Shown: positions 9,696 to 43,436, counted from the stretch's first letter. The stretch: 47,437 nt of DNA from Bacillota bacterium (GCA_021797825.1 JAJZZA010000021.1:1-47437); one strand, 5' to 3'. Numbers and translations are program-made. Notes: generated by a model not told the origin, from the sequence alone.

Positions 9696-11288
9696 TCATG
9701 GGTTGCGCAACAGGTAGCGCTGGATTTTGCCGCTGGGCGTCTTGGGCAGCGTACCGACAAATTCGATCTCCCGCGGATAAGCGGTTTTGGCCAATCGCTG
9801 GCGAACCCACTCCTTGAGTTCAGCGGCTAGCGGCTCGCTGGCCGCGTGCGTGTTTCGCAAGACAATGTAGGCCTTAACCGATTCGCCGCGCAGGTCGTCA
9901 GGTACCCCAATGACGGCGCACTCCGCCACGGAAGGATGCGTCATGAGGATGTTTTCCACTTCGAAGGGACCAATGCGGTATCCGGCCGATAGGATAATAT
10001 CGTCGGAACGCCCTGAAAAATAGAAATGGCCTTCGTCATCGCGGCTGGCGTCGTCTCCGGTAAGATAGTAGCGGTTGTCTGGGGTGAACCGTTGCCGTGT
10101 GCGTTCCGGAGCATGAAAATATCTGGTAAACCAGCATAAAGGCGAACCCTGGGTGTCTATTGCCAGGTGTCCTTCTCGCCCATCGGCGAGTTCAACGCCC
10201 TCATCGTCCACCACGACCGGACGAAAACCCGGCAAGGCCACACCCATGGAACCGGGTTTGACCGGCCGGTCTTGTTCCGGATGGTGGTGGTTGTTAATCA
10301 CCATGCCCAGCTCCGTCTGACCATAATGGTCATAGATGGGGACTCCCAAGACGGACTGAGACCATTGACTAACCTCGGGGTTTAATGGTTCCCCGGCGCT
10401 GGAAATGACCCTTAGCGACGTTTTCTTGGGGGTGGGACTGGTGGCGCGGATCGCGCGAAAGGCGGTGGGTGCTGCCGCAAAGTTGGTAATCTGATAGTGC
10501 TCCAAGAGATGTAAAATCCGTTCGGGCTCAAATGCTCCGAGATAAGCCAGGGTTGCTTGGCCCAGCAAAAGTGGTCCGATTAATCCGTAATAGAGGCCAT
10601 AGGCCCAGCCTGGATCGGCCAGATTCCAAAATCGGTCGTTTGGCCGAAGATCTAGCCCTAAGCGCATGTAAGCTTCGAAGGAGGCCAACGCCCAAATCGG
10701 CACCACAACGCCTTTCGGCTGTCCGGTCGTGCCCGACGTATAGAGCAGCACCATGGCGTCATCTCCGTTGCGGGCAATCCAATCGGTTCGCGCAGGCGAT
10801 GCCATTAAACTCTCAAAAGAGATATCGCCGCGCTCGACGCTGCCTCCCGTGGTCACGACCACCAGGCTTGCCTGGGCCGGAGCGACGGGAAGCTTCGAGC
10901 GGTTGGGACCGTCGGTCACGACAAGCTTGGTGGCGCTGTCGGTCAAACGGTAACTCACCGCCTCGGTGCCAAAAGCCGTAAAGAGCGGCACATAGACCGC
11001 CCCCAACCGCCAGGCGGCCAACGCGGTCACCGTTAATTCGAGACCTTTGGGAAGCAGGGCGGCAACGCGGTCTCCCGGTTGCACCCCGAGTGCGCTCAAC
11101 CCGTGCGCCAGCCGAGCGCTCAAAGCGTCCAATTCGGAAAATGTGTATGCGTTGTCGTGACCCGGCGCCGTTACGACCCGGAGTGCCATGTCCCGCGGCC
11201 TTTCGGCGCTATGCCGGCCGATCAAAAACCACGCTGCGTTGACTCCCGCGACGCGATATTGCGATAACCCAGACGGTATGGTGTCCAT
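9696..11288 (-). CDS. AMP-forming acyl-CoA synthetase (acetyl/medium-chain type)
   Basis: 530-aa cytoplasmic adenylate-forming enzyme activating a carboxylic acid with ATP and CoA. Visible motifs: P-loop-like MVLLYTSGTTGQPKGVV, YDHYGQTELGM (A5), YYLTGDDASRDDEGHFYF with GRSDDIILSAGYRIGP (hinge), and LPKTPSGKIQRYLLR with the C-terminal catalytic Lys. Length and motifs fit the Acs/medium-chain acyl-CoA ligase group; the acid is not predictable. ATG 11288 is preferred over a TTG at 11294 because AAGGAGG is 9 bases upstream of the ATG but only 3 from the TTG. Stands alone. Confidence 0.88.
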   Translation of the reverse strand: MDTIPSGLSQYRVAGVNAAWFLIGRHSAERPRDMALRVVTAPGHDNAYTFSELDALSARLAHGLSALGVQPGDRVAALLPKGLELTVTALAAWRLGAVYVPLFTAFGTEAVSYRLTDSATKLVVTDGPNRSKLPVAPAQASLVVVTTGGSVERGDISFESLMASPARTDWIARNGDDAMVLLYTSGTTGQPKGVVVPIWALASFEAYMRLGLDLRPNDRFWNLADPGWAYGLYYGLIGPLLLGQATLAYLGAFEPERILHLLEHYQITNFAAAPTAFRAIRATSPTPKKTSLRVISSAGEPLNPEVSQWSQSVLGVPIYDHYGQTELGMVINNHHHPEQDRPVKPGSMGVALPGFRPVVVDDEGVELADGREGHLAIDTQGSPLCWFTRYFHAPERTRQRFTPDNRYYLTGDDASRDDEGHFYFSGRSDDIILSAGYRIGPFEVENILMTHPSVAECAVIGVPDDLRGESVKAYIVLRNTHAASEPLAAELKEWVRQRLAKTAYPREIEFVGTLPKTPSGKIQRYLLRNP

Positions 11289-11655
11289 GACCAATGGCCT
11301 CCTTATGGCGGCAGCGGGGATGGCGGTTGCGGTACCGCCATCCCGGCGGCATGGACCGCGGTTGCTGCCAGCACGCTTTTGCTCAAGTATTGCACAGGGG
11401 CGTCAGGCTAGCCAGAAGTCCGGGTAAGCCCCGTCAACAATTCCCCGAAAAGCGAGTGCGAGGCGGCATTTTGGGGCGGATTGCCAAACTGCCAAGCCGA
11501 GCCGGACGGCGACTGGATAGACGGGGCCTAAGATGTGCGCGCGGAGCGTGACCAGACCCCCGCTCTTTTCGGCTCTCGACAGGCCGACTGCTATGCCCGG
11601 ATCACTCAGTACTCGCACGTCGACGACGCGGTCACAACGATCGGCTGTGGGGAAC
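11289..11655. other. Intergenic region upstream of the acyl-CoA ligase
   Basis: About 365 bases between two minus-strand genes. It holds the ligase ribosome binding site and a strong hairpin (listed separately). No convincing -35/-10 pair or gene was found. Confidence 0.5.
11317..11344 (-). promoter_or_regulatory. Perfect inverted repeat in the acyl-CoA ligase leader
   Basis: GGGATGGCGGT (11317-11327) and ACCGCCATCCC (11334-11344) form an 11-bp stem with a 6-base loop, 29 bases upstream of the ligase start. No T-run follows on either strand, so it is not a simple terminator. It may be an operator or an mRNA 5' hairpin. Confidence 0.45.
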
Positions 11656-13518
11656 TTAACTGGACCACGTTCTCCCGCCATTGGTTGTGTGATAGAGGGG
11701 GGCTTGGCCCCCGGGAGTCAACCATCCTTCTGTGGGGGATACAAAGTTCACCCATTGGATGGTGATGTTAGGCGGCACGGTTTCCGTATGCCAGCTTTTG
11801 CCCCCGTCCTGAGTGATAAAGATCGTACGCTGATACCAAAGATAGCCAAACTGCCGGTTAAGAAAGTTCAAGCCCAGAGGATATCCGTTATTAGCCCGCT
11901 GGGCCGATGGCAATTGATAACGCAGCCAAGTTTGACCATTGACCGTATGGTAGAGATAGGGGGTCAGGGGATGCCCCGCCTCGTAGCGTTTGATGGCTGC
12001 CGGATCATGGGCGTGATGCTCGTCAAAAGCATGTTGCGCACCCACCGCTGTGGACGACATCCCGATCGCCCATAGGTCATCGGGAGCGGGACTTGTCAGC
12101 AGACGTGGAGCAAAGGGCAGGGCCAGCCTTTGCCAATGCTGTCCGCCGTGGTTGCTGACCCAGGCCCGGGTTCCCTGCGGAGAATCCGTCACCATAACCC
12201 CCCGACCCGATGCGGTCATGGACAAGCTTTGGGCACGCTGCCGGCCCGGCACAGAAATCGCCTGGAAATGATGGCCAAGGTCGGAACTCATATACACCGC
12301 GCCGTTTTGGCCCACAACCCATATGGTGTGGCCCTCGCCCCATTGGAGGGCTGCGATATTGATGGCGGGACCGACCGCCTCGCGCCAGGTTTGCCCTCCG
12401 TTTTGGGTGATGAGGATGGACGAAGAACTTCCCCCCATTCCCATCCCCAATCCGGGCGTGGCGAAGCTGACGGAGCCGGTTGGGGTTGCCGGAGGATACC
12501 GTCTGGACCAGTGGCGTCCGCCGTCGGTCGTCGCCCACAAAATGCTTCCCCCGCCCTCTGTCAGGATGAATCCGGTATGGGCAGCGGGAAACGCCAGGCT
12601 GTCCACCATGACGCTGTCGGGTGGGAAATGGTTGGCCCATACCACGTTCCAATGCAGTCCGCCGTCGGTTGTCCGGTAGACGGCACCGCGGGCCAAGGCC
12701 ATATAGCCCAACTGGCTGTTGACGAAATGCAAGACATCTACGTAGCCACCCACAGATAGACTGCCGGCGGCGGACGACGCGCCCAGGGGTGCCGATTGGG
12801 CAATCTCGGTCCAAAATTGCCCCCCGTTAGTTGTTTGATACAACGCTTTCATCTGTTCTCCCGCCCCGGGTTCGCTTCCCGCCAAAAGCCAGCCGGTGGT
12901 GGCGTTGAGAAAATCCACGGAGCTGCCCAACGCGCCGGGAAACAGAGGGACCGCACCTGTCGGCATCCATGTGCTTCCCCCGTCGGTGGTGCGATAGAGG
13001 CGGGATTGAGCCGTTTGCGAATTCGATTCGACCATCCAACCGGTGGTGGCACTGACGAAGTCGGGGGGGCTTAAAGAGGTGTTGGCGGGTGCGTCAAATA
13101 TGGTGGTCCAGGACCGCCCGCCATCGGTAGTCCGGGCCAGGCTGGTGGCCAGCTGGCATCCGGTCTGGGGGCATGCGGTCATCCAGCCCGTTTGGGCGTT
13201 TATCATCGTCAACCCCAAGAGGCTGGGGAACAGATGCCGGGGCTGCCAGGTGCGTCCTCCGTTGGTCGTTTGCAGAACCGCGGCAACCTGTCCTAGCGAA
13301 CCCATTGCAAATCCGACGCGGTCCGATACGAATTGAATTTGGGAGAGCGTTGCCGGGGTGTTGGGGAGCGTGTTAAATTGCGGCGTGCTCTGTTGGTCCA
13401 CCCTCAGCCGGGTGATGGCCGACACCGTTGGGGAAGAGGCGTTCGGTCCCCCCGGACCACAGCCCGCGGAACCCAAAACGGCCAAAAACCCTAGTCCGAC
13501 CCACTGTCGAGGCAACAC
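11656..13518 (-). CDS. BNR-repeat beta-propeller lipoprotein
   Basis: 620-aa exported protein. The N-terminus (MLPRQWVGLGFLAVLGSAGC) looks like a lipoprotein signal with Cys at about residue 20, although the -3 residue is Ser rather than Leu. The rest contains about twelve BNR/Ycf48-like repeats with cores such as TTNGGRTW, TTDGGRSW, TTDGGLHW, TQDGGKSW, which build beta-propellers. GTG start with GGAGGGAA five bases upstream. Such proteins can bind sugars or help assemble membrane complexes; no catalytic residues can be assigned. It lies just downstream of the surface-glycan cluster on the same strand. Confidence 0.8.
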   Translation of the reverse strand: MLPRQWVGLGFLAVLGSAGCGPGGPNASSPTVSAITRLRVDQQSTPQFNTLPNTPATLSQIQFVSDRVGFAMGSLGQVAAVLQTTNGGRTWQPRHLFPSLLGLTMINAQTGWMTACPQTGCQLATSLARTTDGGRSWTTIFDAPANTSLSPPDFVSATTGWMVESNSQTAQSRLYRTTDGGSTWMPTGAVPLFPGALGSSVDFLNATTGWLLAGSEPGAGEQMKALYQTTNGGQFWTEIAQSAPLGASSAAGSLSVGGYVDVLHFVNSQLGYMALARGAVYRTTDGGLHWNVVWANHFPPDSVMVDSLAFPAAHTGFILTEGGGSILWATTDGGRHWSRRYPPATPTGSVSFATPGLGMGMGGSSSSILITQNGGQTWREAVGPAINIAALQWGEGHTIWVVGQNGAVYMSSDLGHHFQAISVPGRQRAQSLSMTASGRGVMVTDSPQGTRAWVSNHGGQHWQRLALPFAPRLLTSPAPDDLWAIGMSSTAVGAQHAFDEHHAHDPAAIKRYEAGHPLTPYLYHTVNGQTWLRYQLPSAQRANNGYPLGLNFLNRQFGYLWYQRTIFITQDGGKSWHTETVPPNITIQWVNFVSPTEGWLTPGGQAPLYHTTNGGRTWSS

Positions 13519-13736: not shown

Positions 13737-14837
13737 TCAAGCACTGCCGTCGCGGTCACTCAGGTCATGCAGCAGATGGGAGACGATTCGCCGGGATGCC
13801 TGCCCGTCACCGTAAGGGCTTCCTGTTGCAAAGGTCAGGCGGCCGGCCAGAATGTCGGTGGCCAGGGCTACAATGCGCTGGGGGTCGTGCCCCGCCAACA
13901 CCCCATAGCCTCCGCTGACTACTTCCGGGCGCTCGGTGTGGTCGCGAGTGATGAGGAGCGGAATGCCCAGAATCGAGGCTTCTTCCTGCAGGCCGCCGGA
14001 ATCGCTGATGATGAGGTGCGCAGTTTTAAGAAACGCGATCCAGGTGTCATATTCCATGGGATCGATAATCTGCACGGGGCCAGGGCGCAATAGCTGGCGG
14101 GCGGCCGCAACGATGCGGGGATTGGGATGAAGCGGCAGAAATAGTTCGATGTGGGACTGGCGGGCCAATGTGTTGAGCGCCCCAAAAATGTCCGTTAGGT
14201 GCCGATAGTTCTCCCGACGGTGGATGGTGGCAACAATTCTCCGGGGTCTTTGCCGGGGGGGAAGAGTGAACTCTCCCGGCAATCCCCAGCGGATGACTTG
14301 GGCCAGAGCATCGACCACGGGGTTGCCCGTTACGAAAATTTTGCCGGGGGCCGATTCTTGCCGAAGATTGGCGGCCGCCGTGTCGGATGGAGCGAAATTC
14401 CATTGGCTAAAGGTGGCGATGGTGCGGCGGAAGGTTTCCTCCGGAAACGGCGATCGGGGGCGATAGGTGCGCAGGCCGGCTTCCACATGGGCCACCGCGA
14501 ACCCCTCATGGAAAGCGGCCCAGGCCGCCATTACCGCGGTGGCGGTGTCGCCCAAAACCATGACGACGTCCGGCGCCAGCGTTCGCAGGAGCCGGGGGAG
14601 ACGGGTAAGGATGCGGGCTTCCAGCTCGACCAGGGTCTGGCGTGGTTGGAGCAGATTCAGGTGATAGGCGACGGGGACCCCAAAACGTTCCATGATGGAC
14701 GGCATCAGACGATCATGTTGGCCCGTGTCGACGCCAAAGTAGGAGACTTGCGGGCAATGGAGCAGAGCCTGGGATACCGGCGCCAGTTTAATCGCCTCCG
14801 GACGGGTTCCGAACACCACGGCTACCGTTATCGCCAT
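13737..14837 (-). CDS. wecB: UDP-N-acetylglucosamine 2-epimerase (non-hydrolysing)
   Basis: 366 aa, cytoplasmic. Converts UDP-GlcNAc to UDP-ManNAc for surface polymers. Family motifs: FGTRPEAIKLAPV, TGQHDRLM, VMVLGDTATAVMAAWAAF, VAHVEAGLRTYRPRSPFPEE, GNPVVDAL, TIHRRENY, LPLHPNP, SDSGGLQEEASILGIP, RDHTERPEVV. ATG overlaps the end of the upstream methyltransferase gene by ten bases. Length is normal. Last gene of the glycan cluster; no ManNAc dehydrogenase (wecC) is present in the window. Confidence 0.93.
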   Translation of the reverse strand: MAITVAVVFGTRPEAIKLAPVSQALLHCPQVSYFGVDTGQHDRLMPSIMERFGVPVAYHLNLLQPRQTLVELEARILTRLPRLLRTLAPDVVMVLGDTATAVMAAWAAFHEGFAVAHVEAGLRTYRPRSPFPEETFRRTIATFSQWNFAPSDTAAANLRQESAPGKIFVTGNPVVDALAQVIRWGLPGEFTLPPRQRPRRIVATIHRRENYRHLTDIFGALNTLARQSHIELFLPLHPNPRIVAAARQLLRPGPVQIIDPMEYDTWIAFLKTAHLIISDSGGLQEEASILGIPLLITRDHTERPEVVSGGYGVLAGHDPQRIVALATDILAGRLTFATGSPYGDGQASRRIVSHLLHDLSDRDGSA

Positions 14838-15493
14838 GATTCAGTTCCCCGGCGCCGTAATACGGCGCGAAAACAGCGGAGCGCACCGTCCGGCGATGCG
14901 AGACTCTCGGCCGGCAGCGAAAAATCGACCGGGCCGGCGAACGCCAGGCCGGCCGCTACCACGGCGTGGTGAAAAAAGGCGAGATCGACCGTGGGGTAGT
15001 CCAGGCTTACGACGATTAGACCATTATCGGCCAGAGCCCGCTCAAATTCCGCCAAGGTTCTGTGCTGACCATCTTCCGACAAATGCTCCAAGACCGACAG
15101 ACAAAAAATGCGGTCAAACGATTTCGCCGCATACGGGAGATCGAAAATGGAGGCCAGGACTAAGGCCAGACGCGGCAGATAGGCGCGGATTAGCCGGTCG
15201 GCCACTTCCGGCCCGAAATCGTCGGCAATTCCCTGCCGCAGAGCGTCAGCGGTGAGCAGACGCGGATCATGGTCACACGCGTGGGCGGTTTGGCAGTGCG
15301 CCGCTAGCCAGAACTTGAAGGGATGCGACACCCCTGCCGCCGCATCCAGCACCGTGGCCTGAGCGTCGGCGAATTCTTGTGCCCAGCGGTATTCGTAAGG
15401 CCGGCTCCACCAGGTCTGGGGCAACGGCGCCAGCACCACGTCGGTTTGCGGGTCCGAGGCCAGAACGAAACGGCTGACCCATTTTTCATCCAT
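14828..15493 (-). CDS. SAM-dependent methyltransferase
   Basis: 221 aa class I methyltransferase-like protein. Motif I is degenerate (TVLDAAAGVSHPF), motif II Asp is in ACDHDPRLL, and the later part reads SFDRIFCLSVLEHL and ALADNGLIVVSLD, typical of methyltransferase type 11/23 proteins. ATG 15493 is chosen for GGGAGG 9-10 bases upstream; it overlaps the end of the preceding glycosyltransferase gene. Probably modifies a sugar or the glycan made by its neighbours; the substrate is inferred only from context. Confidence 0.78.
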   Translation of the reverse strand: MDEKWVSRFVLASDPQTDVVLAPLPQTWWSRPYEYRWAQEFADAQATVLDAAAGVSHPFKFWLAAHCQTAHACDHDPRLLTADALRQGIADDFGPEVADRLIRAYLPRLALVLASIFDLPYAAKSFDRIFCLSVLEHLSEDGQHRTLAEFERALADNGLIVVSLDYPTVDLAFFHHAVVAAGLAFAGPVDFSLPAESLASPDGALRCFRAVLRRRGTESWR

Positions 15494-16589
15494 TTTGTCC
15501 GCCTCCCGACGCGGGCCGGCCATAGACGCTAAACAGGGCGTTGGTCCACGATGCCTGCCACTGTTCCAAGCCAAAGCACACGGCCGACCGCCGGGCGTTG
15601 TCCGCCAGTTCCCGCCGCCAAGCCGGTCTGGCCAAAAGATCGGCGATGGCATCGCGCACTGCACCCGCACGCGGCGGCACCAGTAACCCGTTAAATCCCG
15701 ACAGGATCAGATTGGTCAATCCTCCAATATTGGTGGCCACGACCGCAGAGCCGGATGCCATCGCTTCCAGGCAAGCCAGCGAGGTTCCCTCGCTGTAAGT
15801 CGATGGGATCACGACGATGTCGGCTTGACGGTACAATTGCGGCATCTCATCAAACGGCGTGCTGACCAACTGCACGCGGTCGGAAAACGGGAAGGCCTCC
15901 AACTGGCGGTCGAACCGTTCGTTCCACGGGCGGTTGTTGCGATCGACGCTCATGGTGACGCGCAGGCTGCGGTCCGCGGCAATCAGCGGAGCGACGGCCT
16001 CCAGAAAGAGGCTGATGCCGCGGGCGGGGTCGATCCGGCGGGGGAACAGGATAAGCGGCGGGTCCGGGCGCGGTACGGATGGGGGCGTGAATTGGCGCGT
16101 GTCCACGCAATTGGGAATCACCGTAATCTTGTCGGCGAGGCTTGGGTAGACCGCACGCATCACATTGAGGAAATTGTAATCGACCGACACGATGGCCTCG
16201 GCCTGCTGCAACGCAGAGCGACAGGCCTGGAACTGAACGTCGGCGTCCATTCCCGGCGCGTCCCACCAAACGCCGTGGGAGACCACCAGCGAGTGCGGAC
16301 GGTAGGCCATCGGCTCCTGCATGATCGAGAGGTACAATGACTGCGTGGTGTGGTGATGGATCGATTCCAACGCGGCCAACAGACTGAGACGGGCGAGCCC
16401 GTGGCCGCGAATGGGGATGCCGTCGATGGTCCGCGTCCAGTCGGACGATCCGTTTTGGTGCACATCGACCGTGTACCCCGCCCGTCGGGCAGTTCGGATC
16501 AAGGCCCAGGCCATCCGCTCGAGGCCCCCTAAGACAGGACGGTCGCCGTCCCAGGTCAGGAGGTTCGGCAAGATAAAAGACAGCGTCAT
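15486..16589 (-). CDS. GT4-family glycosyltransferase
   Basis: 367 aa, GT-B fold retaining glycosyltransferase. N-terminal acceptor domain with the glycine-rich PVLGGLERMAWAL; C-terminal Glycos_transf_1 domain from about residue 170 (ILFPRRIDPARGISLFLEA, then EGTSLACLEAMASGSAVV with the EX7E motif, and IGGLTNLILSGFNGLL). GAGGAG precedes the ATG by about 9 bases. Shares arrangement and motifs with the other GT4 at 18484-19602, so the two look like paralogues. Acceptor and donor unknown. Confidence 0.87.
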   Translation of the reverse strand: MTLSFILPNLLTWDGDRPVLGGLERMAWALIRTARRAGYTVDVHQNGSSDWTRTIDGIPIRGHGLARLSLLAALESIHHHTTQSLYLSIMQEPMAYRPHSLVVSHGVWWDAPGMDADVQFQACRSALQQAEAIVSVDYNFLNVMRAVYPSLADKITVIPNCVDTRQFTPPSVPRPDPPLILFPRRIDPARGISLFLEAVAPLIAADRSLRVTMSVDRNNRPWNERFDRQLEAFPFSDRVQLVSTPFDEMPQLYRQADIVVIPSTYSEGTSLACLEAMASGSAVVATNIGGLTNLILSGFNGLLVPPRAGAVRDAIADLLARPAWRRELADNARRSAVCFGLEQWQASWTNALFSVYGRPASGGGQNG

Positions 16590-16815
16590 GGCGCATTCTC
16601 CTCATCACAAAGATTGTCTGGCGGGATCTGGCCCCGGTTTGGGTTCGGGCCGGCGGGCTGGCGTGGGCGGGACCGGAGCCGCGGCCACAACGCATGGCAG
16701 ACGGCATCCGGCGAACGGCTCGACAACAACTCCTGCGCCGCGTTGCCCCACGTTCCCCAGAGGGGAATGGTGGGCGGCGGCGACCGGATTTCGGACGGAA
16801 ATGGCCGCTTGCCGC

Positions 16816-17547
16816 CTAAACGCCGGTGTTCTGGCGCAACCAACCGGGGCTTGGCAACTCAATCCAGGGTTCCAGGGTGACGGTGCTGGCCAACACGCTT
16901 TCGGTATGCGGCTGGACTTTGCCGTAGGTGGTCAGGTCGTGGTGGCGATAAAACAGGTATTTCCGCAGATGTTCGTCGCCGCGGGCCCAACCGTAATGGC
17001 GGACGCGAAGCGGGCTGTAAAAAGTTACGCGATCGCGATACGCCAAGGGGAACCGGCCGCAGTGAATGGGCTGTTGCAGCCAGCCGGAGGGGAGATCGGG
17101 GTCAAAACGTACCAACAGCGGAGAAAAACGATTCCAGGGATGCCAGGCCCCATCGATGCGGATCAGCTCGGTGCTCTTCCAGAAATCGAAAATGCGAAAC
17201 GCCACCGCGTCGTAGTCGTGTTGCTCCAAGAGCCGCGGCAACTCGGCCAGCGCCCGGTCTTCAAAACACTCGTCCGCATCTAAGGCCAGCACCCAGTCGG
17301 GCCTCTGCAACGCCGTCAATTTCCACAGATGATGGCGCAGTTCCGCTTCGTTTCGTTCAAACCACGCGAAGTCACCGCGATAATAGCGCACGGCGGGATA
17401 GCTCCGGCATATGCGGGAGGTTTCATCGTCAGAGGCGTCATCATAGACCACCACCGCGTCGCTGAACGCGGTCAACTGGTCCAGAACTCGGCCCAGCCAG
17501 CGCTGGGCTTCATTACGCACGGGCAACATGGCTACCAGCCGCGCCAT
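16816..17547 (-). CDS. GT2-family glycosyltransferase
   Basis: 243 aa, GT-A fold. Motifs: LPVRNEAQRWL, VYDDASDDETSRIC, WVLALDADECFEDRAL (DAD metal site), ending in RVRHYGWARGDEHLRKYLFYR. This last element is common in WaaE-like and SPBc2-type GT2 enzymes adding sugars to surface glycans or proteins. ATG 17547 is selected because AAAGGAGGAG lies just upstream; a longer frame has no such signal. Separated from neighbours by ~230-base gaps that hold no gene I can support. Confidence 0.85.
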   Translation of the reverse strand: MARLVAMLPVRNEAQRWLGRVLDQLTAFSDAVVVYDDASDDETSRICRSYPAVRYYRGDFAWFERNEAELRHHLWKLTALQRPDWVLALDADECFEDRALAELPRLLEQHDYDAVAFRIFDFWKSTELIRIDGAWHPWNRFSPLLVRFDPDLPSGWLQQPIHCGRFPLAYRDRVTFYSPLRVRHYGWARGDEHLRKYLFYRHHDLTTYGKVQPHTESVLASTVTLEPWIELPSPGWLRQNTGV

Positions 17548-17778
17548 GGCTTGCTCCTCCTTTCTTTCCGAGGCCACTGGTTTGGTCAATCCGTCACGGG
17601 TGGCTTTTTCCAACAAGTGTCGGAGCATTCTGCAGTAAAATATGGAAACGGAGCGCGAGGAGTGTCAGTATCACCGAAAAAAATTGGGTGCGCCGCAAAA
17701 CGTCGGGTGCGACCATCGGGCATCGCAACGTGATCGGGAAAGGGAGGGGATGGTGATACCGGTTGGCCGGGAGGGTTG

Positions 17779-18474
17779 TCATCGCCGGAGTTCGGTGGAT
17801 GTTGCGCGATGGCGCCACAGAGCGGCCAAGCCGGGCCGGTTTTGCCAAGGCGGCCGCGGCGCGGTGAGGACCGCCGATGGCGGCAGATTGAGGCTGTTGC
17901 CGGTGATTTGGGATAGGGCGGAAAATTGGTTGGCATGGCCGGCGGGCGCCGGGGAGGGGGCGGTCCCTACCGCGACGCACCCAAAACACGCCGAAGTGAC
18001 ACAGGCCTGCCACTGGCCGAGTTCGGGACCGTTTGCCGCCAGATAGCGCACCACCGGCGAGGCGGTGGCCACCACCTGCGTGACGACTCCCGAAGTTTGC
18101 AAGGCAAAGACCCCGGTCATTTGCCCAATGATGGTCAGGAAGCTGGGGTTGGCCGCGATGGTCACCGCTACGTCGAACTGGCCGCAAGCGACCGGTTGGG
18201 GGAATGGACCGGCCAGAGGCACAGGTCCTTCGGGTGTGAAAGCGAGGGTTAGCGATTCCGCAAGACAGAGATTTTGCAGCACCCGTTCCGTTTTCACACA
18301 GGTCAACTCAAAAACCGGCTGCGGATCGGCCAGGGCTGCCAGCACGATCAGGTCGGCTGGCGCGGTCTGGGCCAGTTCGACACAGAGGCCAAGAGAACAC
18401 AGGAATTGAAGGGTTCCGGTTTGGATGCGGTTGGATGATATTTGGGCCATATTCGAAAAGGGCATGACTTGCAC
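17779..18474 (-). CDS. Unrecognised Cys-containing protein within the glycan cluster
   Basis: 231 aa, no signal peptide and no membrane helix. The start is a GTG close to AAAGGT; an ATG at 18465 is equally possible. The first ~170 residues are rich in V, A, L, T with spaced Cys (FLCSLGLCVELAQ, LTCVKTERVLQNLCLAESL, VACGQFDVAVTI, ACVTSACFGCVAVG); the tail is basic and Pro-rich. The CVKTERV-x3-C pattern recalls some uncharacterised spore-surface proteins of Bacillota, but this is only a resemblance. It begins 9 bases after the GT4 gene stop, suggesting co-expression. No function is assigned. Confidence 0.6.
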   Translation of the reverse strand: MQVMPFSNMAQISSNRIQTGTLQFLCSLGLCVELAQTAPADLIVLAALADPQPVFELTCVKTERVLQNLCLAESLTLAFTPEGPVPLAGPFPQPVACGQFDVAVTIAANPSFLTIIGQMTGVFALQTSGVVTQVVATASPVVRYLAANGPELGQWQACVTSACFGCVAVGTAPSPAPAGHANQFSALSQITGNSLNLPPSAVLTAPRPPWQNRPGLAALWRHRATSTELRR

Positions 18475-18483
18475 CGACCTTTG

Positions 18484-19602
18484 CTAAAGGGTGTCGGCTA
18501 TCACCCGCGACCACCGCGCGCGCCATCGCTCCAAACTGAAGGTTTCCGCCACTTCGCGGGCATGGCTGCCCAAACGCCGGCGCCCAGCCGGATCGTTGAT
18601 TAACCGCTCGGTGGCATCGCGCAACGCCTGTGCGGTGGGTTCAATCAAAAGACCGCTATAGCCGTCTTGAATGAGGTCGGAGAGGCCGCCGACCCAGGTG
18701 GTAATGACGGCGGCGCCGCTGGCCATCGCCTCCAGGCACGACAGCGAGGTGCCCTCGCTGGACTTGGTCGGGATCCACACAATATCCGAAAAGCGATAGA
18801 GCTCAGGCATGAGGTGGGGGGGAAGCCAGTAATAAAAGACGCGGTCGTGCGAGGCAGCCCAGGCGGTGAGCGTCCGTTCCATCGCGTCGTCGTGGGCGCG
18901 TCCGACAAAATGGACTTCGGCGTCGGGATGGGCTTCGGTAACCCAAAGGGCCGCCTTGCCCGCCTCATTGATTCCCCGCACCGTGGTAGCCCGCCGCGGG
19001 AAGACGATGCGGATTCTCTCATGGGGACTTTGGTTGGCCGTATGCTTCGGCGCGAAGGCGGCGGCGTCAACGAAATTAGGGATATAATGGAATTTTTGCG
19101 CCAGAATGGGCCAGGTCGCTCGCGCCCAGTTAATCGTCGCGGTGTCAACCGAAACGACCGACTTGACGCCTCCGATCGCCAACTGCAGGCGGCGCAGCCA
19201 TTCTTCACGGTCTGGTTGGCCGGGAAGAAATTTGTCGACCCCGGGGTGGTCCCAGTAGATCCCGTGCGATACGGAGATGCTGTTGGCAAATACCGTGGGG
19301 TAGGCCAGATACATCACGAAGTAAATGGCGCCGTCGGCGTCGACCGCCTGTTCAAAGAAGACCTGGTTCAGATGCGGCATGGTCTGATAGGGGGTTTCGG
19401 TTTCCGGAACGCCACGAATGGGCACCCCCGGGATAATTTCCTTCCGCCAGTTATCCCCGACCTGCCACCATTCCACGCCGTAGTCCATGTCCAACAAGAG
19501 TCTGGTGAGTTCGGCCCCGTAGCGCTCGGCTCCGCCGTACACCTGCCGGGCGCCCGAGGGTTCAAAATGGTTTGATGTCAAAATCGCAATCCGCTTTTTC
19601 AT
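18484..19602 (-). CDS. GT4-family glycosyltransferase
   Basis: 372 aa, GT-B fold. N-terminus MKKRIAILTSNHFEPSGARQ leads into VYGGAERYGAELTRLL, the nucleotide-sugar/acceptor loop of GT4 enzymes; the C-terminal domain has RIRIVFPRRATTVRGINEA, EGTSLSCLEAMASGAAVIT (EX7E) and VGGLSDLIQDGYSGLL. The ATG at 19602 has AAAGGAG about ten bases upstream; the longer frame is not supported. Lies between the TasA/CalY-like gene and the unrecognised Cys-containing protein. Confidence 0.87.
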   Translation of the reverse strand: MKKRIAILTSNHFEPSGARQVYGGAERYGAELTRLLLDMDYGVEWWQVGDNWRKEIIPGVPIRGVPETETPYQTMPHLNQVFFEQAVDADGAIYFVMYLAYPTVFANSISVSHGIYWDHPGVDKFLPGQPDREEWLRRLQLAIGGVKSVVSVDTATINWARATWPILAQKFHYIPNFVDAAAFAPKHTANQSPHERIRIVFPRRATTVRGINEAGKAALWVTEAHPDAEVHFVGRAHDDAMERTLTAWAASHDRVFYYWLPPHLMPELYRFSDIVWIPTKSSEGTSLSCLEAMASGAAVITTWVGGLSDLIQDGYSGLLIEPTAQALRDATERLINDPAGRRRLGSHAREVAETFSLERWRARWSRVIADTL

Positions 19603-19647
19603 CGACACAACACTCCTTTGGGCGGGAATCCCTAACAGCCAATCACT

Positions 19648-19673
19648 AGGGGAGGCACGCACGCGCCTCCCCT
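19648..19673 (-). terminator. Hairpin after the TasA/CalY-like gene (weak terminator or attenuator)
   Basis: AGGGGAGGC (19648-19656) pairs with GCCTCCCCT (19665-19673) around an 8-base loop, about 50 bases past the stop of the TasA/CalY-like gene and before the glycosyltransferase start. On the minus strand no long T-run follows, so read-through is likely. It could set a high first-gene to low downstream-gene expression ratio. Confidence 0.5.
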
Positions 19674-19723
19674 CCCTTGGTTGGAACCCTTCGTTCGATT
19701 CGCGAGCGGCAAAGTGCGCCCGG

Positions 19724-20191
19724 CTACGAAAGCCCCACGAATACGATGTCGAATCCCACGTCGATACCTTGGTAGGTAGACGACGCCGAGGACGGGAGAT
19801 TAACCGCGAACTGAACGTTTTCGTTGCCGGTGGCCAGCGTGAGCGACTGCCCGGGACTGGTGGGTTGATCGATCAGGTTGTACATGCTGCCGGCAAAAAC
19901 CGGGGAGGCCGTGGCACTGGGAGACCCAGCGGTGACACTGACCACCAATTCTTTGACCAGGCGAGTGGCGGCCGCGGTGGTCGTGGTCGCTGTCGGCGAC
20001 CAGTTGATGGTGACTTGATAGAACTCATCGACGGTGCCCGTGTTCGACACGTTGGCCACCCCGGTGACACTGGATCCGGGGGTGAAATTGGACGCGGTGA
20101 TGATCGCGCTGACCGGCGATACCGTCAGCGAGGTGGTGGCGGTGCTGGTGGTATTGCCGGACGGGTCGACCGTTGCGAACGAAAAAGCCAT
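19724..20191 (-). CDS. CalY/TasA-like surface protein without signal peptide
   Basis: 155 aa, low in charged residues and rich in S, T, V, A, with beta-strand patterns. The segment ASNFTPGSSVTGVANVSNTGTVDEFY and the ending LPSSASSTYQGIDVGFDIVF match the layout of the camelysin/TasA fibre family (N-proximal SNTGT-type strand, C-terminal Y/QG-x-D-V-F strand). Unlike TasA or CalY, it begins MAFSFATVDPSG with no signal peptide, so it would remain in the cell or mother cell unless released otherwise. Very strong AAAGGAGG before the ATG suggests high expression. First gene of the minus-strand glycan cluster. Confidence 0.65.
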   Translation of the reverse strand: MAFSFATVDPSGNTTSTATTSLTVSPVSAIITASNFTPGSSVTGVANVSNTGTVDEFYQVTINWSPTATTTTAAATRLVKELVVSVTAGSPSATASPVFAGSMYNLIDQPTSPGQSLTLATGNENVQFAVNLPSSASSTYQGIDVGFDIVFVGLS

Positions 20192-20661
20192 GGATACACC
20201 TCCTTTGCTGTGGCAAATAGTGGAACCCTATCCACTAACCTATCAGTATGAGATTGTCGTCCCCCGTGTGAATGGAACCGAGGATTGGCGTCACACATGT
20301 TTTCGCGGAGGCGTCGAGAACGCTTGCGGGTTCAACGCGGTCCCACAATGAGCCTGGTGGGCGCCAGGCGACGGGAAGGCCGGTTTGCCGTGCTGTTCGC
20401 TGTCCGAAAATCGCGGGCCGCCGGTTGGCAGCCCGCTCAGCGGCCGCACGCCGAAATTCCCGTCGGCCCCTTTTGCGGTGGATAAGGCGGGGCGAAGCGG
20501 CTAACCGGTCGATCCCACCACCGGGGCGGAGATTGGCCTGAAGTGCGACGTTGTCCGCGGGCCGAAGGGTTGCGGGCAGAACGAACGGCGCCCAACTGCC
20601 GGGGAACCTGGTGGCACCCGCCTTACCAGGTTAAAGGCCTGGTCGTCCCAACCCGGCAGCC
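20192..20661. other. Intergenic region upstream of the TasA/CalY-like gene
   Basis: Roughly 470 bases with no supported gene. The left end is the leader of the TasA/CalY-like gene and contains the dyad at 20218-20237. A sequence CATACTGATA on the minus strand around 20245 could be a -10 of a sporulation sigma factor, but no matching -35 is evident. Confidence 0.45.
20218..20237 (-). promoter_or_regulatory. Dyad in the leader of the TasA/CalY-like gene
   Basis: TAGTGGA (20218-20224) and TCCACTA (20231-20237) form a 7-bp perfect dyad with a 6-base centre, 26 bases ahead of the start codon and upstream of the ribosome binding site. Could be an operator or a 5' stabilising hairpin of a highly expressed mRNA. 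Confidence 0.45.
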
Positions 20662-22671: not shown

Positions 22672-23379
22672 TTAGCGACGGCGGGGACCCGGCGTTTTAT
22701 CCGGCAGCAGATGCCGCACATCGTAGCCCGCCCGAATTTCTCGCGCTCCCCAGTGGGACCTGGGGCAGGTTTCCGTCCAAGAACCGTCGGCTCTTAGGTA
22801 CCGAATCGGTCGACTCTCCGCCTCCCCCCGGGAACGGACAACGGTCGCCGGCAGGGTTCCCGCCCAGGTGCGCAGCATTTTGGCGTCGGAGGCCAAACCT
22901 CGCGCTGGGCGGCATTGGATCGGGAACTCCAGCCCGGACTGTTCGCACCAGGCCTGGATTCGCGCCAGCCGCAGCGACTGGCCTTGCGCCACCACGATGA
23001 GGCCGGGCGGCGGGTCGCCGCGATAACCGTCAAGCTTGGCCAGCCATTGCCGGCGGTTTTCTTTACCGGTATCCACCTCGATCGGGATGGCACGGTCTGT
23101 CCCGGCGAACAACACCAGCGCATCGGCTTGCACGCGACCGGCGGGGACGGTATGCCAGGCGGCCAACTCGGGCCGCAAATCAAGATAGGTCTGGCTGACT
23201 GCCACCCGGTGCCCCATGCGGGCTCCCCGGCCAAAGCGCGCGCGGTCCCAAATCGCTCCCTGATAGACGACCACATCGGCGGTTTGTTGAATCTCGGCGA
23301 TTGTTGTGCGCCAGCCCGTAAACAACTGATCGTCGGTAAGCACGCCCACCAGCCGCAGCACATCCTGCCAAGGCGGCAT
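22672..23379 (-). CDS. Replication-relaxation-like protein
   Basis: 235 aa. Resembles the replication-relaxation family (PF13814), small proteins beside conjugation ATPases on plasmids and integrative elements. A short N-terminal helix-turn-helix-like part (LRLVGVLTDDQLFTGW) is followed by HRVAVSQTYLDLRPELAAW, RVQADALVLF and the family's IPIEVDTGKENRRQWLAKLDGY core. The C-terminus is Arg-rich. The ATG overlaps nothing but starts 2 bases after the coupling-protein stop; GGAGGA lies inside that gene. Probably made from the same mRNA. Role inferred from the family only. Confidence 0.68.
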   Translation of the reverse strand: MPPWQDVLRLVGVLTDDQLFTGWRTTIAEIQQTADVVVYQGAIWDRARFGRGARMGHRVAVSQTYLDLRPELAAWHTVPAGRVQADALVLFAGTDRAIPIEVDTGKENRRQWLAKLDGYRGDPPPGLIVVAQGQSLRLARIQAWCEQSGLEFPIQCRPARGLASDAKMLRTWAGTLPATVVRSRGEAESRPIRYLRADGSWTETCPRSHWGAREIRAGYDVRHLLPDKTPGPRRR

Positions 23380-23381
23380 GG

Positions 23382-24818
23382 TCAGGATTCCTCCAGCGAA
23401 TGGTAGGGCAAGCGCACGACGGTGGGCCGGCGAAGGTGCCCGCCGCGGGTCGTTTGGACGATGGCGCGGCCTCGGCGCAGTGTCCGCAGATCGGCAGGGA
23501 GAAGGTAGGGCGCCGCTTGCCGGCTGAATACCTCCGTGTCCTGCGCCGACAGGCCTCCCAGCAGGATGCGCTGGCGGGCATTGCTCAAAATTGCCGCGGA
23601 GAGGGTGGGGGAGAGTTGGCCCAGGTCTTGATGGGCCAAGACCAAACCCGTCCGATACCCGCGCGCCAAAGCCAAAAAATCGCTGAGATCAGGAGTCACA
23701 TACTGGTGAAACTCGTCCAGGTACAAAAAGGCCGGAGGGGTGTGTTGATGAAGCGGCCGTCGATAAACCGCCATGGCCAGACCGTGCCACAGCAGGGTTC
23801 CCAAAATGCGCGCCGACTCACCGAGACGGGCCAGCGACAGCGGGGCGATCACAACCCATCCGTATTGCAGCACGGTATCCCAGTCAAAATCCGGGGGCCC
23901 GACAATGGCCCGCCGGATCGACGGGTTGAGGAGCAACAATTCCAGCCGGTTCAGCAGGCCCTGGCGTTGCTCTTGCGCGGTGCGGGCGGAGAGCTGGCCG
24001 ACTTGGTCGCGAAAATATGCTAAGGCGCGCTCATCGTGCAATTGCGCTAAAATATCGCGGCGAAACCCTTCCCGTCGCAGGAAATCCACCACGGAGGTTA
24101 AGTCGGCGTCGGCGCCCAGGACGTCTTTGACGGCCAAAACCGCGTAAATCAGCTGGACCCGGGAGGTGACCGCATAGAAGGGATGCCCGGCCTCGCTGAC
24201 TTGGTTCAAGGCCCAAGCCAGGCCCTCCGCCGCCACTGCGCCCGGACCGCTTAACGGATTATAGCGCGGGCAATCCGGGCGGTCCGGGTCGAAGAAAACC
24301 ACGGTGCGCCGGCTGGCGAGCGCCTGTTGGTAAGCAGCCCGGCTCAAATCCCCTTTGGGTTCGATAAGAATGACCCCGTGGTCATTTGACAAGTCGTGTG
24401 CGAGCATGGGCATCAACACACTGGAGGATTTCCCGGAACCGGTTGGGCCGACCACGTGGGTATGAAGAAACCGGTCGGACAGGGGCAGGGTGAGGACGGG
24501 CAGCGAGTGACGCAAAAAAGGCCAGAGGACCAGGATAGACATCCCCCCGCAGGCCATGGCCAGCGCCAGGGGGTGCCGATAGGTTAAAACCAGGCTGGCG
24601 GCTCCCAGCCCCAGCGAACGGCGCCACCCGGTGAATGCGGCACCCGCCAAGGCGGTGATCGCACCGCCGATTTCTAGCGGCGGCGAAATCAAAGGCCCCC
24701 CGCCGGGGCCGGCTAACGCCCCGGCAATGGTGGCGGCCACGGAGACGATCGCCAAATAGGAAATGGTGAGGGCCCAGAACGCCTGGGCCGCCCACAGCCG
24801 TGCTTGCCTGTTACCCAT
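23382..24818 (-). CDS. VirD4/TraG-type coupling ATPase (conjugation-type)
   Basis: 478 aa membrane-anchored ATPase. Four N-terminal hydrophobic segments, then HTHVVGPTGSGKSSSVLMPML (Walker A), VILIEPKGDLSRAAYQQAL, PRYNPLSG, FLYLDEFHQYVTP (Walker B, ELDEF-like), and GLVLAHQDLGQLSPTLS with the C-terminal ILLGGLSAQDTEVFS. This is the layout of TraG/TraD/VirD4 proteins that feed DNA or proteins into type IV secretion. No relaxase, channel genes, integrase or oriT are seen nearby, so it may be a relic or a chromosomal two-gene unit. Confidence 0.85.
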   Translation of the reverse strand: MGNRQARLWAAQAFWALTISYLAIVSVAATIAGALAGPGGGPLISPPLEIGGAITALAGAAFTGWRRSLGLGAASLVLTYRHPLALAMACGGMSILVLWPFLRHSLPVLTLPLSDRFLHTHVVGPTGSGKSSSVLMPMLAHDLSNDHGVILIEPKGDLSRAAYQQALASRRTVVFFDPDRPDCPRYNPLSGPGAVAAEGLAWALNQVSEAGHPFYAVTSRVQLIYAVLAVKDVLGADADLTSVVDFLRREGFRRDILAQLHDERALAYFRDQVGQLSARTAQEQRQGLLNRLELLLLNPSIRRAIVGPPDFDWDTVLQYGWVVIAPLSLARLGESARILGTLLWHGLAMAVYRRPLHQHTPPAFLYLDEFHQYVTPDLSDFLALARGYRTGLVLAHQDLGQLSPTLSAAILSNARQRILLGGLSAQDTEVFSRQAAPYLLPADLRTLRRGRAIVQTTRGGHLRRPTVVRLPYHSLEES

Positions 24819-40945: not shown

Positions 40946-41452
40946 TTAGACACGAGAATTTCCGGTGTCCGCATGGGTTTGGCGATAACGCTGACGGGCC
41001 GCGGTGATCAGGTCGACGGCGGTGTTAACGTTCTGATAATTCCCGACCACGGTCGTTAATCCCTGCAGATTCTTATATTTTGCAAAGAAGTGGCGGACCT
41101 CGCGTAAGCGGTGTGTCCCCAGATCGTCCACTGCGGAGATGTGATTATACCGGGGATCCCGATCGACGACGCCGACGACTTTTGCGTCCGGTCCGTGTTC
41201 ATCCTTCATCAACAGAGCGCCTATGACTCGCACGTCCACTTCCACTAGCGGATGAATCGCCGTCGACCCGAATACCAGCACGTCAAGCGGGTCGTCGTCT
41301 TCCGCCCAGGTTTCGGGGATAAACCCATAGTTAACGGGATAATGCATGGCCGCATACAAGACCCGGTCGAGGCGGGTCAATCCGGTAGCCTGGTTGTACT
41401 CGTACTTATTTTGCGAACCTTGGGGAATTTCGATGACCGTTTGAACTATCAA
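40946..41452 (-). CDS. ppa: Inorganic pyrophosphatase
   Basis: 168 aa, family I soluble pyrophosphatase hydrolysing PPi. Motifs: VIEIPQGSQNKYEYN, YAAMHYPVNYGFIPET, DDDPLDVLVFG (metal-binding Asp cluster), DAKVVGVVDRDPRY, and FFAKYKNLQG. Start choice: GGAGG at 41461-41465 is only 2 bases from the ATG at 41458 but 8 bases from the TTG at 41452, so TTG is preferred; the proteins differ by two residues. About 70 bases upstream lies a terminator-like hairpin. Confidence 0.9.
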   Translation of the reverse strand: MIVQTVIEIPQGSQNKYEYNQATGLTRLDRVLYAAMHYPVNYGFIPETWAEDDDPLDVLVFGSTAIHPLVEVDVRVIGALLMKDEHGPDAKVVGVVDRDPRYNHISAVDDLGTHRLREVRHFFAKYKNLQGLTTVVGNYQNVNTAVDLITAARQRYRQTHADTGNSRV

Positions 41453-41522
41453 CCCCATCGCCTCCGTATCATTAGTCAGAGGCGGGCATCACGCTGTCGT
41501 TTGCATAGGCTCATCGACCCGC

Positions 41523-42149: not shown

Positions 42150-43436
42150 GTGGCATCAGCACAAATCGCCAACATCACAGGTTATCGCATACTGGATTCC
42201 CGGGGGGTTCCTACGGTTCGCGTCGAAGTTGTTTTGACGAGCGGCGAGGTCGGAGTGGCGGCGGTTCCGTCGGGGGCGTCCACCGGAGCCCGGGAATCGG
42301 TGGAAATCCGGGATCACACCGCGCGCTACGGAGGACGGGACATTCAGACGGTATTGAACAATATCGAGCGAGAGGTTGCCCCGGGCCTTATCGGGCGCGA
42401 TGTGCGCCGCCAGCAGGATATCGACCGGTGGCTGATTGAGCGCGACGGAACGCCGAATAAATCGCGCTGGGGAGCCAACACGATCCTGGGGGTGTCCCTG
42501 GCGGTGGCTCAAGCCGCCGCGCAAGCCGCCGGCGAGCCGTTGTACCGCCTGTGGTTGGCGGGACAGGCGGGCGAGCTGCCAACACCCCAATTCAATGTGG
42601 TCAATGGGGGAGCGCATGCCGACAACAAGTTGGCGGTGCAGGAGTTCCTGCTTATTCCCGGCGGAGCCCCTACCGTCGCAGAAGCCATCCGCATGGGATC
42701 GGAGAGCTATCAGGCGCTCAAAGCGGAACTGCGCCAGCGGGGGTTTCGTACCGCGGTGGGAGACGAAGGCGGGTTCGCGCCGGGCATTAGCCATCCGGAA
42801 GAAATTTTTGAATTGCTGCTGCGCGCGATCGAGCGGGCGGGGCTAGCGGCCGGCAGGGATGTGGCTTTGGGGATCGATGTGGCCGCCAACAGTCTTTGGC
42901 AAGCCGGCCGCTACCACTGGGAAGACGGGGTGGTGGACTACGCGTCCCTCATCGCAAGCTATGCGAAATGGGTTCGGGATTATCCCTTGATATCGATTGA
43001 AGACGGGCTGGCGGAGGATGACTGGGAAGGGTGGGCCGCGTTGACCCGGACCCTGGGCGGTTCCTGTCAGATTGTCGGCGACGATATCTTTGTCACCCAT
43101 GCCAACCTGGTGGAGCGCGGCATTCGGGAACGCTCGGCCAACGCGGTGCTGATCAAACTGAACCAGGTGGGTACGGTGACGGAAACGCGGGACGTGTTGA
43201 ATTTGGCCCAGACGGCCGGATGGAATACGGTGGTGTCGCATCGCTCGGGGGAAACCGACGACACCGCGATGGTGGATTTGGCAGTAGCCCACCGAGCCGG
43301 CCAAATCAAAGCCGGCGCCCCGCAACGGGGGGAGCGGACTGCGAAATATAACCGCCTGTTGCTCATCGAGGCCAAAGACCCGCGGTTGCCGTTCGCCGGA
43401 TGGCGAGGGCTGCCGTCGCGCCCTGAAAGGGGGTAA
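42150..43436 (+). CDS. eno: Enolase
   Basis: 428 aa glycolytic enzyme converting 2-phosphoglycerate to phosphoenolpyruvate. Signatures: PSGASTGARESVEIRD, NVVNGGAHADN, AVGDEGGFAPG, SIEDGLAEDDWEGW, IVGDDIFVTH, ANAVLIKLNQVGTVTET, VVSHRSGETDD, and KAGAPQRGERTAKYNRLL. The usual DSRGNPTVEV near the N-terminus is DSRGVPTVRV, and the GAPSRSER motif is GAPQRGER; the catalytic Lys and metal ligands are kept. GTG start with GGGAGGG six bases upstream. Unlike many genomes, no gpmI/tpiA/pgk neighbours. Confidence 0.95.
   Translation: MASAQIANITGYRILDSRGVPTVRVEVVLTSGEVGVAAVPSGASTGARESVEIRDHTARYGGRDIQTVLNNIEREVAPGLIGRDVRRQQDIDRWLIERDGTPNKSRWGANTILGVSLAVAQAAAQAAGEPLYRLWLAGQAGELPTPQFNVVNGGAHADNKLAVQEFLLIPGGAPTVAEAIRMGSESYQALKAELRQRGFRTAVGDEGGFAPGISHPEEIFELLLRAIERAGLAAGRDVALGIDVAANSLWQAGRYHWEDGVVDYASLIASYAKWVRDYPLISIEDGLAEDDWEGWAALTRTLGGSCQIVGDDIFVTHANLVERGIRERSANAVLIKLNQVGTVTETRDVLNLAQTAGWNTVVSHRSGETDDTAMVDLAVAHRAGQIKAGAPQRGERTAKYNRLLLIEAKDPRLPFAGWRGLPSRPERG

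Follow-up and report, generated by a model that had tools for sequence, protein, structure and literature searches.

We describe here a block of seven same-strand genes in a 47,437-nucleotide stretch of DNA from a Bacillota bacterium (GCA_021797825.1, JAJZZA010000021.1), called the window throughout, which is one contig of a 3.59-Mb genome assembly that is 97% complete. In the order of their transcription on the minus strand, the genes encode P1, a small protein resembling TasA and camelysin; GT4a, a family-4 glycosyltransferase; CysP, a cysteine-rich protein; GT2, a family-2 glycosyltransferase; GT4b, a second family-4 enzyme; a methyltransferase; and the sugar epimerase WecB. We consider it probable that this is a mother-cell locus, controlled by the sporulation sigma factor σK, which makes a spore-surface protein that is glycosylated in the cytosol by its own dedicated enzymes.

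The conserved core of the block is P1, GT4a and GT2, while wecB and the methyltransferase gene belong to it only among close relatives. All seven genes occur in the same order in three genomes from other genera of the family (G010, G001 and G018), with identities of 79-87% for P1, 65-85% for the glycosyltransferases and 36-39% for CysP. The block is arranged divergently in G026, a relative at order level, with GT2, GT4b, the methyltransferase gene and wecB on one side and P1, GT4a and a CysP-like gene on the other, and a class-level relative (G035) has the arrangement P1-GT2-GT4a-GT4b. The block was also found in a Bacillota metagenome-assembled genome (JAJYHT010000100.1), the sole close relative to emerge when named genome contigs were scanned. 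The P1 profile (A1) was positive in 12 of 154 genomes of the class and in 46 of 398 genomes of the phylum. A GT4a profile (A6), built from P1-linked members although the search itself is blind to P1, found 38 strong members (at least 498 bits) in the same 398 genomes, and P1 is present in 36 of these 38. Every one of the 36 pairs shares a contig and 35 lie within 4.2 kb, the median separation being about 0.9 kb (Fisher p = 1e-39, uncorrected for phylogeny); with a looser GT4a cut (E up to 1e-60), 36 of 50 genomes carry P1. A GT2 of the same subfamily is encoded at most P1 loci, and in three of them (L079, L080 and L084) GT2 and GT4a form one fused protein. The linkage of the structural protein with the glycosyltransferases is not a chance mix. 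The first-pass annotation of the window, which had raised a dedicated glycosylation system as one possibility, named as tests whether the gene order recurs and whether the structural proteins ever adjoin glycosyltransferases in other genomes; three genomes have the complete order and two more distant relatives a rearranged one, and with P1 in 36 of 38 GT4a genomes the idea came through strongly. An AMP-binding acyl-CoA synthetase-like gene lies at 9696-11294 (-) in the window, and its relatives in L026 and L092 are likewise close to the block, so that the synteny may extend beyond seven genes.

Neither structural protein had been seen to carry a signal peptide, and this reading holds. The start of P1, M(A/P)F(S/T), falls at the same residue across 37 aligned homologues (alignment A5), so the missing signal peptide is a property of the family and not a missed start, and CysP likewise begins at its conserved MPFS. 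The ribosome-binding site of P1, AAAGGAGGTG, described earlier as exceptionally strong, is indeed a long match to the anti-Shine-Dalgarno sequence, and sites similar to it (AGGAGGTG) precede many P1 homologues. The window P1 contains 31% Ser+Thr, compared with 9-12% in the enzymes, and is devoid of Cys. Its sole Pfam lead is the Peptidase_M73/camelysin family (PF12389), at 14.5 bits against a cut-off of 22.5; the NCBIfam relative, a SipW-dependent matrix protein, also stays below its cut-off. Within the family, 18 of 37 members match PF12389 at E up to 0.1 (best 1.9e-5), and a search of the PDB with the family profile ranked two TasA structures first (8aur and 5of1, at E about 0.4 and with 47 residues aligned), the alignment beginning near the start of the mature TasA chain. 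The CalY/TasA likeness noted at first pass is therefore real but remote, remaining under the PF12389 cut-off, and P1 is most aptly described as a protein distantly like TasA, beginning where secreted TasA begins after cleavage. Members of PF12389 were not found in the window's genome or in 12 relatives. Phage and plasmid collections yielded no match to P1, so that, as far as these collections go, P1 is not carried by phages or plasmids.

A role in sporulation and σK control of the locus are predictions that are strongly supported by the distribution of P1 and by its upstream regions. The sporulation gene spoIVA is present in 55 of 55 tested P1 genomes versus 336 of 398 overall, and for the 46 P1 genomes within the sample of 398 the enrichment gives p = 2e-4. 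The σK consensus of C. difficile is given as AC and CATATAAT (PMC3789822). Of 37 loci, 19 have the pattern AC-N16/17-CATAnnnT ahead of P1, where dinucleotide shuffles gave 0.64 (maximum 3 in 300), and it precedes other open reading frames (ORFs) of the same loci in 16 of 366 cases (4%; p = 2e-13 versus P1). AC-N17-CATA stands before P1 in three close relatives as well as in the window. A full CATATTTTA box, with AC at 17 nucleotides, stands before GT2, and the same box precedes GT2 in L026 and L028; it is the sole full match in the window, where 1.7 are expected by chance, and as one or two chance matches are to be expected in a stretch of this length, the evidence for σK rests on recurrence across loci. 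The spore link suggested by the first-pass annotation has thus gained from the co-occurrence with spoIVA, the σK-type promoters and a SPOCS/SipL gene in relatives.

In the window's genome the sigK gene itself is interrupted where the skin element sits in B. subtilis (L107, G000:C101:29500-34500; L108, G000:C131:29000-34000), with a large serine recombinase beside its N-terminal half. The sigK insert of one relative (G003, L113) measures only about 2.7 kb and holds Dps-like and Fur-like genes with a recombinase, that of another (G010, L114) spans about 14 kb and carries genes of metabolism instead of phage genes, and 15 of 25 relatives have an intact sigK. The insert is an unusually small, phage-free skin-like element.

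CysP had been listed as an unrecognised protein with spaced cysteines, and Pfam indeed assigns it no family. Homologues with 36-39% identity occupy the same place in three close-relative genomes, weaker ones occur in L029 and L089-L091, and family B (seven loci), found near GT4a or P1 elsewhere, comprises remote CysP homologues (hhalign probability 92%). In L073 and related loci GT4a is followed by a small family A and by a SPOCS/SipL coat-assembly protein (PF12673, 9e-51); the latter belongs to the same gene run in some relatives and in L073 lies next to the block. That CysP might itself be a SPOCS protein was considered and dropped, the window CysP and its homologues having no match to PF12673; homology of family A to CysP is not supported, nor is full-length homology between P1 and CysP, of which the N-terminal stretch alone aligns, with low probability. 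What these families do share is an N-terminal pattern, M-x-F-(S/T)-x(4-8)-(G/N)-N, which was picked after inspection of the sequences. As M-x-F-(S/T)-x(4-8)-G-N, the motif occurs in 20 of 37 P1, 6 of 7 CysP, 4 of 7 family B and 4 of 6 family A proteins, compared with 2 of 533 other N-termini. The CysP proteins of close relatives repeat the pattern near their C terminus. Upstream of a GT2-P1-GT4a block in another locus (L099:6731-7360 (+)) we observed a protein with the motif CIEVLKVYDQC, recalling spore-coat-type Cys proteins, whose gene has a σK-type box of its own.

The mother-cell cytosol, the compartment in which σK is active, surrounds the forming spore, and coat and exosporium proteins need no export; soluble glycosyltransferases that use nucleotide sugars can reach such proteins there. 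We propose that mother-cell RNA polymerase carrying σK would read the locus, and that P1, a small and β-rich TasA-like protein, would be made in large amounts and remain in that cytosol, the site of spore coating, so that a signal peptide would not be needed. The constant core of P1, GT2 and GT4a points to a glycan built on P1 in two steps, in which the two soluble enzymes would start a sugar chain on Ser/Thr residues of P1, and possibly of CysP, and lengthen it. In this lineage, WecB would supply UDP-N-acetylmannosamine (UDP-ManNAc), GT4b would add a further sugar, and the methyltransferase, which likely acts on the glycan, would cap it. P1 and CysP, with their similar short N-termini, would then assemble onto the spore surface. 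P1 as the substrate, the order of the sugars, the spore-surface location and the co-assembly are what we infer. Much more tentatively, and as a doubtful extension, the family may form a spore-surface fibre or layer across the phylum, in which TasA-like subunits lacking a signal peptide would be produced and glycosylated in the mother-cell cytosol and would polymerise, perhaps by TasA-type donor-strand exchange through an exposed N-terminal strand, with CysP and families A and B joining as partners through the N-terminal motif.

Several observations weigh against mother-cell glycosylation of P1. About half of the P1 loci have no σK box, and that of the window (CATACTGAT) is one position off the CATAnnnTA consensus. 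Because the counted genomes share ancestry, the p-values overstate their independence, and the GT4a profile derives from P1-linked members. The GT4a subfamily is missing from 10 of 46 P1 genomes, which indicates that the need of P1 for GT4a is not constant. Ser+Thr content averages 22% over the P1 family, falling to 11% in some members, and few Ser/Thr positions are conserved. AlphaFold models from two-row alignments were unusable, with a predicted local distance difference test score of 44 for P1 and 41 for CysP. The main competing explanation, which we regard as unlikely, is that the glycosyltransferases build a crust-like polysaccharide on the spore surface, with P1 and CysP unmodified and either carrying or anchoring it or merely co-regulated. 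Several glycosyltransferases with wecB and a methyltransferase do look like a small polysaccharide cluster, and the ten P1 genomes devoid of GT4a speak for it as well; however, the seven genes include no polymerase, flippase or lipid-carrier initiating enzyme, and a constant core of only P1 and two glycosyltransferases, sometimes fused, fits stepwise protein modification better.

The remote similarity of P1 to TasA and camelysin could instead reflect a TasA-like biofilm matrix protein that vegetative cells release through some non-classical pathway, its neighbours making a surface glycan. Such a role is very improbable given that the whole P1 family is without a signal peptide, that no camelysin-family match was found in the window's genome or 12 relatives, and that P1 has σK-type promoters and is restricted to spoIVA genomes. 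As the nearest Pfam family is named a metallo-endopeptidase, P1 might also be thought an enzyme or other cytosolic protein, such as a camelysin-like peptidase or a parasporal storage protein, rather than a surface subunit; yet the similarity is confined to the N-terminal TasA-like stretch of about 50 residues, the fibre protein TasA provides the nearest solved structures, and the invariant residues of P1 show no obvious metal-binding set, and we rate this as very improbable. The gene content, mixed at first sight, might even suggest that two unrelated genes came by chance to lie within an ordinary cluster for surface polysaccharide, but an association that recurs throughout the phylum (p about 1e-39), mostly within about 1 kb, refutes this unless it is a sampling artefact, and leaves it a negligible chance.

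Table 1. Features of the seven-gene block and its putative control elements (positions in the window)
Feature	Position (strand)	Description
wecB	13737..14837 (-)	UDP-N-acetylglucosamine (UDP-GlcNAc) 2-epimerase making the UDP-ManNAc donor; TIGR00236 match; in four block relatives
Methyltransferase	14828..15493 (-)	S-adenosylmethionine (SAM) methyltransferase; Pfam Methyltransf_11; found in four relatives; conserved start 15493
GT4b	15486..16589 (-)	Second GT4 enzyme, paralogue of GT4a; often but not always a block member
GT2	16816..17547 (-)	Family-2 glycosyltransferase; Pfam PF00535; core partner of P1; conserved start 17547
σK-type promoter	17637..17663 (-)	AC-N17-CATATTTTA, between CysP and GT2
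CysP	17779..18465 (-)	Cys-rich second structural-type protein; N-terminus MPFS; no known family
GT4a	18484..19602 (-)	Family-4 glycosyltransferase; Pfam Glycos_transf_1; dedicated P1 partner; conserved start 19602
P1	19724..20191 (-)	155 aa, TasA/camelysin-like; proposed spore-surface subunit and glycosylation substrate
Ribosome-binding site	20196..20205 (-)	AAAGGAGGTG, before P1; very strong, read from sequence
σK-type promoter	20242..20269 (-)	Before P1; AC 20269-20268, 17 nt, CATACTGAT 20250-20242

All seven ORFs were found on the minus strand where the first-pass annotation had placed them, and the gene types it had named, namely wecB, a methyltransferase, two paralogous GT4 enzymes and one GT2 enzyme, agree with Pfam and NCBIfam. 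Four starts (GT4a, CysP, GT2 and the methyltransferase) were moved inward from the mechanical ORFs by means of alignments with relatives; the mechanical ORF of GT4a reaches 19662. WecB matches Pfam Epimerase_2 at 1e-80 and, with 319 bits against a cut-off of 210, passes the equivalog cut-off of NCBIfam TIGR00236. GT4a and GT4b are about 33% identical, a motif EGTSLSCLE is largely invariant in GT4a, and GT2, aligned with 15 P1-linked homologues, has the motifs DDAS and DADE. Directly downstream of wecB, a YCF48/BNR-repeat protein with a lipoprotein-like N terminus is encoded at 11656-13518 (-), its membership of the conserved block not being established, and a replication-relaxation protein beside a type IV secretion coupling-protein-like gene (22672-24818 (-)) is likely the remnant of a conjugative element near the block. 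Farther away, a fluoride riboswitch (RF01734, 41843-41914 (+)) lies upstream of an enolase gene (42150-43436 (+)), with an inorganic pyrophosphatase gene (40946-41458 (-)) nearby on the opposite strand.

Spore surfaces beyond Bacillus and Clostridioides are almost unknown, and P1, defined at the sequence level and accompanied by the enzymes presumed to serve it, is a candidate major glycoprotein of the spore surface in about one in nine of the sampled genomes of the phylum. The block may also represent a compact cytosolic system of two enzymes for protein glycosylation, one amenable to reconstruction in E. coli. Spore proteins whose genes adjoin that of a dedicated glycosyltransferase are a known kind; the P1 family, its signal-less likeness to TasA, the partnership of GT2 with GT4 and the spread over the phylum appear to be new, and literature searches, mostly without subscription papers, found no description of the block.

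The sps and cge genes of B. subtilis are mother-cell genes for the glycans of the spore crust. They resemble what is proposed for the present block in being mother-cell genes that add sugars to the spore surface (PMC7439481), but their gene content differs and the window block is without a legionaminic-acid pathway. Another parallel is found in C. difficile, where the O-GlcNAc transferase SgtA is encoded beside its spore-surface substrate BclA3 (PMC7157674), a precedent for cytosolic glycosylation of a spore protein by an adjacent enzyme. Here, too, the gene of a presumed spore-surface protein adjoins dedicated glycosyltransferase genes, this adjacency is conserved, and, judging by sequence, mother-cell sigma control and glycosylation without export would be shared. 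In contrast to BclA3, P1 is not a BclA homologue, and no collagen-like Gly-X-Y repeats were found in the P1 and CysP alignments; the enzymes here are of the GT2 and GT4 families, sometimes fused, and are joined by WecB and the methyltransferase in the window's lineage. The endospore appendages (ENAs) F-ENA (DUF4183; PMC11952670) and S-ENA (DUF3992) are likewise built from signal-less β proteins of the mother cell, and O-glycosylation is suspected in one F-ENA (PMC11952670). They differ in that Pfam found neither DUF3992 nor DUF4183 in the window P1 and CysP (E up to 1), the 37 P1 members (E up to 0.1) or the CysP homologues (E up to 5), and no anchor or collagen-like tip gene was recognised here. 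With TasA and camelysin (PF12389; 8aur, 5of1), finally, P1 shares the N-terminal pattern from the start of mature TasA, and it may have a similar, β-rich design. Unlike them, it has no cleavable SipW-type signal peptide (nor was sipW recognised among its neighbours in a general Pfam scan, in which no SipW model was run), scores below the family cut-offs, is linked to glycosyltransferases and has a putative late-sporulation promoter. The comparison suggests that a TasA-like design was taken over for the spore through loss of the export signal.

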